In this document: positions 24,862 to 44,777 of the stretch, piece by piece
How the letters are laid out: every line of letters begins with the position of its first letter
Position numbering within the stretch: position 1 is the stretch's first letter
NCBI RefSeq assembly: GCF_009811755.1
Contig: NZ_BLIV01000001.1
Span: 124,001 to 188,000 of the forward strand
Origin: Roseobacter cerasinus
Lineage (GTDB): Bacteria > Pseudomonadota > Alphaproteobacteria > Rhodobacterales > Rhodobacteraceae
Length of the DNA: 64,000 bases
Direction of reading: 5' to 3'
Notes under the pieces: model-generated
Told to the model about the DNA's origin: nothing
Database searches by the model: none
Seen by the model: the letters and a program-made list of their open reading frames with translations, nothing else
Translations under genes and position numbers: made by a program

Positions 24862-24879
24862 CCCGCCGATCTTGCGCAT

Positions 24880-24894
24880 GTTCTCTTTATGTTC
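24880..24894. promoter_or_regulatory. SOS (LexA) box upstream of the tandem-repeat protein
   Basis: GTTCTCTTTATGTTC fits the alphaproteobacterial LexA site GTTC-N7-GTTC exactly. Another exact site, with spacer ACTTTAT instead of TCTTTAT, stands before imuA at 44763-44777. It lies about 32 bases before the likely ATG of the next gene, where it would overlap the promoter. LexA binding is inferred from the consensus. Confidence 0.75.
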
Positions 24895-24925
24895 TATATT
24901 GATGGAACAGTGGAGGGAGCATGTC

Positions 24926-25276
24926 ATGTCTGTTGAACCGCAGTTTCAAGGTCTCGATGCGCCTGCGCAAGGCACACTGCCACTCACCCCGCCGCAAGCC
25001 CCCAGCGAACAGCAATTGCAGTATGCCCGCGCTCTGGCCGCGAAGACGGGTAAGGTGATCTCGCATGAGAGGGCGCGCAGCCGCTTTGCCCTCTCCGCCT
25101 GGATTGATGCGCACCGCAGGCAAGTGGTCTCCAACCGGTTTGCGCATTATCCATCGTCCAAACAGGTGGCCTTTGCCGAACGGATCGCGCGGATCAAACG
25201 GCGCGAAATCCCGCAGGAGTGCTTTCGCGACAAGCACCTGATGGCGCGGTGGATCGACAGCAACAAGCCACGCTGA
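24926..25276 (+). CDS. Small SOS-box-controlled protein with two tandem repeats
   Basis: The protein is 116 residues from ATG 24926, which has GGAGGG at good spacing (an ATG at 24902 is an alternative). After about 30 Pro/Gln-rich residues come two copies of a roughly 39-residue unit: PSEQQLQYARALAAKTG ... LSAWIDAH and PSSKQVAFAERIARIKR ... MARWIDSN. The unit resembles the small helical repeats at C-termini of some topoisomerases and helicases, so nucleic-acid contact is plausible. The strong SOS box suggests a DNA-damage role. I do not know a named family for the whole protein. Confidence 0.75.
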   Translation: MSVEPQFQGLDAPAQGTLPLTPPQAPSEQQLQYARALAAKTGKVISHERARSRFALSAWIDAHRRQVVSNRFAHYPSSKQVAFAERIARIKRREIPQECFRDKHLMARWIDSNKPR

Positions 25277-25329: not shown

Positions 25330-25701
25330 ATGCCAGATACAGATGTGCTTTATAATGCTGAATGCCCGGTCTGCAGCCGCGAGATTGATCACTACGCCCG
25401 GCTCAGCGCGGCACAGGCACTGCCGTTGCGCTATGACGATCTGAACGATGCAAAAAACCTGGATGACTGGGGCGTCACCGCAGATCAGGCCGCGCAGCGC
25501 CTGCATGTGCGGCAGAATGGGCAGATCTACATCGGGTTGCCCGCCTTTATCGTGCTTTGGCAAAGCCTGCCGCGCTATCGTTGGCTGGCACGGCTGGTCA
25601 GCCTACCGGGTGTCTACCGACTTGCCTGCTGGACCTACGACGGTGTGCTGGCCCCGCTGCTTTACCGCAGCCATCTTCGTCGGCGGCGAAAAACAGCCTA
25701 A
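25330..25701 (+). CDS. DCC (DUF393) thiol-disulfide oxidoreductase-like protein
   Basis: The 123-residue protein has the DUF393 opening DVLYNAECPVCSREIDHY, with a CPVC thioredoxin-like dithiol motif at about residues 12-15. It ends with a basic tail (LRRRRKTA). Members are small thioredoxin-fold proteins of uncertain redox role. The start at 25330 is chosen because the family begins right before its D-x-L-Y-N strand; no good RBS is seen. It follows the repeat protein gene by 53 bases on the same strand and may share its SOS transcript. Confidence 0.87.
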   Translation: MPDTDVLYNAECPVCSREIDHYARLSAAQALPLRYDDLNDAKNLDDWGVTADQAAQRLHVRQNGQIYIGLPAFIVLWQSLPRYRWLARLVSLPGVYRLACWTYDGVLAPLLYRSHLRRRRKTA

Positions 25702-44762: not shown

Positions 44763-44777
44763 GTTCACTTTATGTTC
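44763..44777. promoter_or_regulatory. SOS (LexA) box upstream of imuA
   Basis: GTTCACTTTATGTTC fits GTTC-N7-GTTC exactly and lies 26 bases before the imuA ATG. This is the expected LexA site of alphaproteobacterial imu operons and serves as an internal reference for the second SOS box at 24880. Confidence 0.88.

Follow-up and report, generated by a model that had tools for sequence, protein, structure and literature searches.

A candidate SOS-induced protein with two topoisomerase III tail-like repeats and clamp-type N-terminal motifs in Roseobacter cerasinus and its relatives

The small gene, its promoter and the LexA-type site

The window, i.e. the whole stretch of DNA analysed (64,000 nt of Roseobacter cerasinus), carries on its plus strand a gene for a small protein of 116 residues (24926-25273, with the TGA stop codon at 25274-25276) for which relatives were found elsewhere. 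The gene is preceded by a rimO-like gene and followed by genes for a DCC1-like thiol-disulfide oxidoreductase (25330-25701, plus strand; Pfam PF04134, E 1.3e-20) and an M48-type peptidase. In front of the ATG at 24926 lies a purine stretch, GGAGGGAG (24912-24920), which by eye resembles a ribosome-binding site. Further upstream, where the sequence-only reading had placed it, is an exact GTTC-N7-GTTC site, the LexA-type box GTTCTCTTTATGTTC (24880-24894, plus strand), 31 nt from the ATG. This box sits inside the 17-nt spacer of a promoter-like arrangement: the -10-like hexamer is TATATT (24895-24900) and the -35-like hexamer is a poor TTGCGC (24872-24877), with only 3 of 6 matches to TTGACA. When the family was aligned on the site, its consensus read CTTGAAAA-T-GTTC-N7-GTTC-TATATT, that is, a promoter made of TTGAAA, 17 nt and TATATT with the LexA-type site filling the spacer; 78 of 149 loci had at least four of the six bases of each sigma-70 hexamer.

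Conservation of the site was determined on three overlapping sets of relatives. The first consisted of 18 places, found in 17 of 59 genomes; 12 of the 18 other members of the genus had a match. The second was drawn from 295 genomes that represent the family at close to one per genus, 68 of them with a match; of its 84 places, the fragments G264:C68, C87, C78 and G254:C129 were left out and the places coding for long proteins (G064:C367 twice, G109, and G251 twice) were handled separately, two of the 68 genomes (G109 and G251) having long proteins only and one (G254) a fragment only. The third was the best 80 of 516 named relatives, among which the nearest matches to the small protein were Roseobacter contigs. 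The site was present in 18/18, 71/74 and 79/80 of these sets, respectively. The SOS control proposed from the window alone had been staked on such conservation before orthologues, and it was found: once duplicates of upstream sequence were removed, 149 of 153 distinct loci had an exact copy in the 260 nt ahead of the gene. On the same 153 loci, the pattern read backwards was seen once, its other-strand version GAAC-N7-GAAC also once, and the variants with a 6-nt or an 8-nt spacer five times and never. Over 886 kb flanking the 80 named loci, the gene strand has the site three times. By eye, three of the loci (L125, L156 and L182) have the site with one mismatch each, and no LexA-type site was found upstream of L172. 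In 19 of the 153 loci (e.g. L063, L090 and L124) a third GTTC half-site occurs 11 nt further on; three half-sites in a row would permit two overlapping LexA sites.

The bare pattern is by itself weak evidence. It was found five times in the window, where shuffles gave 1.65 on average, and it is not enriched in the whole genome (90 occurrences versus 110 for the pattern read backwards). What places the site far above chance is its conservation upstream of relatives. Being almost invariant across genera and plasmids, it marks the gene as a steady part of the SOS response rather than a stray, and we regard the small gene as in all likelihood under LexA control.

Other LexA-type sites of the genome were considered as well. 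The matching control site announced for the imu cassette does exist: a GTTC-N7-GTTC at 44763-44777 stands before the minus-strand imuA-, imuB- and dnaE2-like ORFs. Sites were also seen ahead of the recA-like, UvrD-like and lexA genes (L192, L193, L201); lexA was recognized by its PF01726 match (59.6 bits) and adjoins a LexA-type site on contig C7, while the other names (imuA-, imuB-, dnaE2-, recA- and UvrD-like) are what we take the translations to be. In front of imuA, recA, lexA and the UvrD-like gene, the site points against the direction of the gene; in the small-protein family it points the same way as the gene (forward in 149 loci, reversed in one). We know of no reason why the direction should matter to a LexA dimer. 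Two further sites, at L197 (G000:C3, about 238.7 kb) and L199 (G000:C4, about 110.5 kb), have directly behind them related small ORFs of about 90-126 codons that share a stretch like IETLWSIVxxFVDLG, and a similar site and leader were noticed at L205 (G000:C12, about 8.5 kb). L197, L199 and perhaps L205 may be members of another small SOS protein family. For D. shibae, the predicted sites given in PMC6473078 include those of recA, lexA, dprA and others.

Two helical repeats and their kinship with topoisomerase III tails

That the protein consists of two tandem helical repeats, as first proposed from the window alone, was borne out by sequence comparison and by an AlphaFold2 model. The unit is of about 41 residues: repeat 1 covers residues 24 or 25 to about 66 (24998-25123) and the better conserved repeat 2 residues 74-116 or so (25145-25273). 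Alignment of residues 24-66 with residues 74-116 scored 54, the best of 2000 shuffles reaching 25, and hhalign paired the repeat 1 profile with the repeat 2 profile at 98.2% (E 3e-14). By these comparisons the two units are true, homologous repeats. The AlphaFold2 model was built from 75 sequences, namely the window protein plus 74 relatives from the third set above (L077, L096, L108, L111, L112 and L125 being omitted); its mean pLDDT is 81.2 and its pTM 0.51, with helices at residues 28-41, 53-63, 78-91, 97-100 and 103-113 and a low-confidence N-terminus in which residues 8-16 are below 50.

The protein is basic (net charge +10, pI 10.9), and so is the family (median pI of 10.2 over 146 relatives). 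No family of Pfam, NCBIfam or PHROGs was above cut-off for the window protein, for which the earlier statement that it belongs to no named family thus stands, with the reservation about some of its relatives given at the end. Foldseek found no match in the PDB at E < 0.001; the best began at E 1.8, included homeodomains and are meaningless. A fold match to an uncharacterised Aeromonas phage protein (E 2.5e-4, TM 0.37, rmsd 8.3) and one to a GIY-YIG protein (E 0.023) were set aside as too weak, and weak matches to TyeA and to an Arc-like repressor were taken as chance. No sequence relatives were found in phage records and viral contigs.

The sequence-only reading had likened the repeat to units at the ends of some topoisomerases and helicases. 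The first half of this comparison was upheld: hhalign aligned the repeats of the small protein with the C-terminal repeats of plasmid topoisomerase III (Topo III) at 98.5% (E 1.9e-15), and we consider the two almost certainly akin. The helicase half found no support, since its sole sign was a Pfam match to the helicase HA domain (PF03457) at 13.8 bits, below the cut-off of 28.4. Outside the small proteins, type IA topoisomerases have the unit at their C-terminal end. Examples on plasmids are topB of Xanthomonas and a topoisomerase fragment of Variovorax; further ones are long proteins of Rhodobacteraceae and other Alphaproteobacteria. Four proteins examined with Pfam have the topoisomerase domain. 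Because no PDB fold match was significant, the case for DNA binding is built on charge and kinship, from which we judge that the small protein probably binds DNA.

Some relatives of the unit deserve mention in their own right. In a plasmid-type Topo III of Rhodobacteraceae (L133:50-2410), the last repeat scored 65.4 bits with the small-protein model and closely resembles repeat 2, as if a segment had been swapped between the genes. Two small proteins of distant Alphaproteobacteria, with 106 and 153 residues (L139/L052 and L140/L049), contain a single unit each, in one case behind a basic N-terminal segment.

N-terminal motifs and genomic settings

The low-confidence N-terminal segment of the window protein contains, at residues 15-20 (24968-24985), the hexamer QGTLPL. 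Clamp-type motifs in the N-termini of this family, like its plasmid branch, are features that the earlier reading did not mention. PMC11139829 gives the beta-clamp consensus as Q-phi-x-[L/M]-[F/L], along with a hexamer form, and places the motif of Hda in a disordered N-terminus; according to PMC3836487, the QFKLPL of Caulobacter HdaA is required for DnaN binding. Since QGTLPL has a glycine at position 2, where the consensus of PMC11139829 calls for an aliphatic residue, it reads as a weaker version of the motif, and clamp binding by it is putative.

Motifs were counted in 129 unique N-termini, with the caution that the counts are inflated by the common ancestry of the relatives. Q..LP[LIM] was found in 38 (shuffle mean 0.39, maximum 4 in 2000 shuffles) and Q[LHASMPFTI][SDG][LM]F in 11 (shuffle mean 0.17, maximum 2 in 2000 shuffles). 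Among the first 35 residues of 918 neighbouring ORFs, the former occurred once and the LF type never. The strict QL[SD]LF was seen in a single N-terminus, a value equalled by 24 of the 2000 shuffles. When the N-termini were thinned to 76, 21 retained one motif or the other and 55 were without a strict clamp motif. L077 and L190 were skipped in the count and the N-terminus of L125 was entered by hand; start codons were set by rule, so that some are wrong (e.g. L033, L147, L172 and L187), and that of L001 was taken from an upstream ATG.

Three kinds of N-terminus can be distinguished. The first, mostly in chromosomal copies, bears QxxLPL, an LF motif or both; the second is an NDYHxLP tail, a few members of which begin with QLSLF, QHSLF, QADLF or QSDLF; the third, that of the plasmid-type copies, is short, at some ten residues. 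The two types of clamp motif occur in separate branches. The plasmid branch is a supported clade (41 rows, 99/95), in a tree calculated from few columns and whose bootstrap had not settled, and its N-termini have no clamp motif. For this reason, docking on the clamp cannot be a function common to the whole family. For the chromosomal branch, we hold it to be possible, at slightly under even odds.

The genomic settings of the different kinds are also dissimilar. In the window, the DCC gene begins at 25330 on the same strand, about 53 nt past the stop codon of the small gene. By tblastn, a DCC gene is next on the same strand for 52 of the 72 unique clamp-motif/LF proteins, for 2 of the 52 in the no-motif class, for none of the 26 in the NDYH (DYH) class and for 10 of the 26 duplicate rows; by ORF picking it is found at 30 of 81 loci, and the figures thus vary with the method. 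As had been suggested, the DCC gene is a possible operon partner, and a transcript common to both genes is plausible from their arrangement. A gene for a strawberry-notch helicase faces the small gene in 22 of the 52 members of the no-motif (plasmid) class, in none of the clamp-motif/LF class and in 0 of 26 of the NDYH class, many loci of which have only 1.5 kb of flank. In the plasmid copies L141 and L146, the surrounding stretch carries genes for the strawberry-notch helicase, toprim, DUF2493, RadC, DUF932 and SSB proteins, a setting unlike the chromosomal one.

Matches were present in 179 plasmid records, 99 of them typed as conjugative; the 179 include 24 from Xanthomonas and 4 from Variovorax, and those from these two genera that were read are topoisomerases or unnamed proteins. 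A link with the ImuA-ImuB-DnaE2 mutasome was sought through co-occurrence and not retained: ImuB was counted by hand in 57 of 68 genomes with a match (a figure in which G109 and G251 are entered for their long proteins and G254 for a fragment) versus 169 of 227 without, which shows no clear link. The ImuB matches, at 1e-40, may include DinB-type polymerases.

Possible mode of action and comparison with known systems

The explanation that we favour, with a probability of roughly 0.45, is that of a LexA-induced, basic, probably DNA-binding protein which, in the chromosomal branch, would be docked on the sliding clamp. Going by the conserved site and the geometry of the family promoter, LexA bound within the 17-nt spacer would keep the small gene off; DNA damage, through LexA cleavage, would release the promoter and let the protein accumulate. 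The kinship with Topo III tails suggests that the two helical repeats bind DNA, single-stranded or forked, or else a protein of the fork, as might be expected of a tail domain from an enzyme working on single strands. Within the chromosomal branch, the enriched motif of the disordered tail (QxxLPL or QxxLF type) would dock the protein on the DnaN clamp and so bring the repeats to the stalled fork, where it could compete with other users of the clamp or recruit them. In the plasmid branch, whose tail is motif-free, the DNA that the repeats serve during the SOS response would be that of the plasmid itself. The site, the promoter geometry, the repeats, their kinship and the motif enrichment are what the sequences show; induction, DNA binding, clamp binding and the effect on the fork are what we infer from them.

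The strongest competitor, which we also consider a real though tentative possibility, dispenses with the clamp: the protein would be an SOS-induced DNA-binding protein whose repeats coat or bridge DNA at sites of damage, the N-terminal motif being a chance feature inherited within a few lineages or serving another partner. The strong LexA site, the basic repeats and the relationship to Topo III tails agree with it, and the majority of thinned N-termini without a strict motif, together with the plasmid branch devoid of any, speak in its favour. It does not account for motif counts far above those of shuffles and neighbouring ORFs, or for the presence of two motif types in separate branches. More removed, and in our view unlikely, is a plasmid-derived origin, in which the protein would be a putative helper, of the leading-region type, for incoming or rolling DNA, adopted by some chromosomes; it might protect or process single-stranded DNA, or damp the SOS response of the host as PsiB does. 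The abundance of matches in plasmid records, many of them conjugative, and the facing strawberry-notch helicase with RadC, DUF932, toprim and SSB genes nearby would fit such a role, and leading regions carry SSB, methyltransferase and anti-SOS genes according to PMC11541004, but the window copy occupies a fixed chromosomal place among the rimO-like, DCC and M48-type genes.

The homology to Topo III tails could also evoke a decoy or regulator which, by its copied tail, would act on a resident Topo III. We rejected this for the present genome and judge it highly improbable: its one type IA topoisomerase (PF01131), an 854-residue protein that is presumably Topo I, has no tail repeat. Finally, a chance occurrence of the GTTC-N7-GTTC site before a gene outside LexA control, as the unenriched bare pattern of the genome might suggest, is scarcely credible in view of the 149 relatives with the site against a single one with it reversed.

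Little work has been done on the SOS regulons of marine Rhodobacteraceae, and the small gene is one further candidate member. If the clamp tag works, a non-polymerase protein would form a direct link between the SOS response and the sliding clamp, and the repeats in plasmid Topo III tails would gain a first testable role. It is conceivable, though doubtful, that the protein stands for an undescribed class of SOS effector, in which a LexA-induced protein would load Topo III-type repeats on the sliding clamp as a damage-inducible competitor or adaptor of marine Rhodobacteraceae. Such an effector would brake or remodel stalled forks, and would be taken from, or common to, conjugative plasmids, where the repeats are used with no clamp tag attached. 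Among the papers found, no title or abstract opening names the small protein, which is no proof of its being undescribed.

Four known systems invite comparison. Pfam DUF3072 (PF11272), a name under which no literature was found, is matched weakly by 18 of 75 relatives, at E up to 1 (best 1e-5), and was not listed for the window protein at E up to 10. YebG is an enterobacterial SOS-induced DNA-binding protein; it is small, basic and LexA-controlled, traits that the small protein appears to have as well. A YebG match was listed for none of the 75 relatives and for the Variovorax topoisomerase fragment alone (E 0.082). Hda/HdaA and other beta-clamp ligands likewise have a QxxLPL-type motif in a disordered N-terminus ahead of a folded part, and the best Hda-like protein of the genome (L213) begins with MAEQLGFELP; the small protein differs from Hda/HdaA in having no AAA+ domain and, in the window, in the residue at position 2 of its motif. 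The last is the tail of plasmid Topo III (TopB), where the same unit of about 41 residues is present in two or more tandem copies; unlike Topo III, the small protein is without a Toprim or topoisomerase domain (Pfam) and stands alone behind its LexA-type site.
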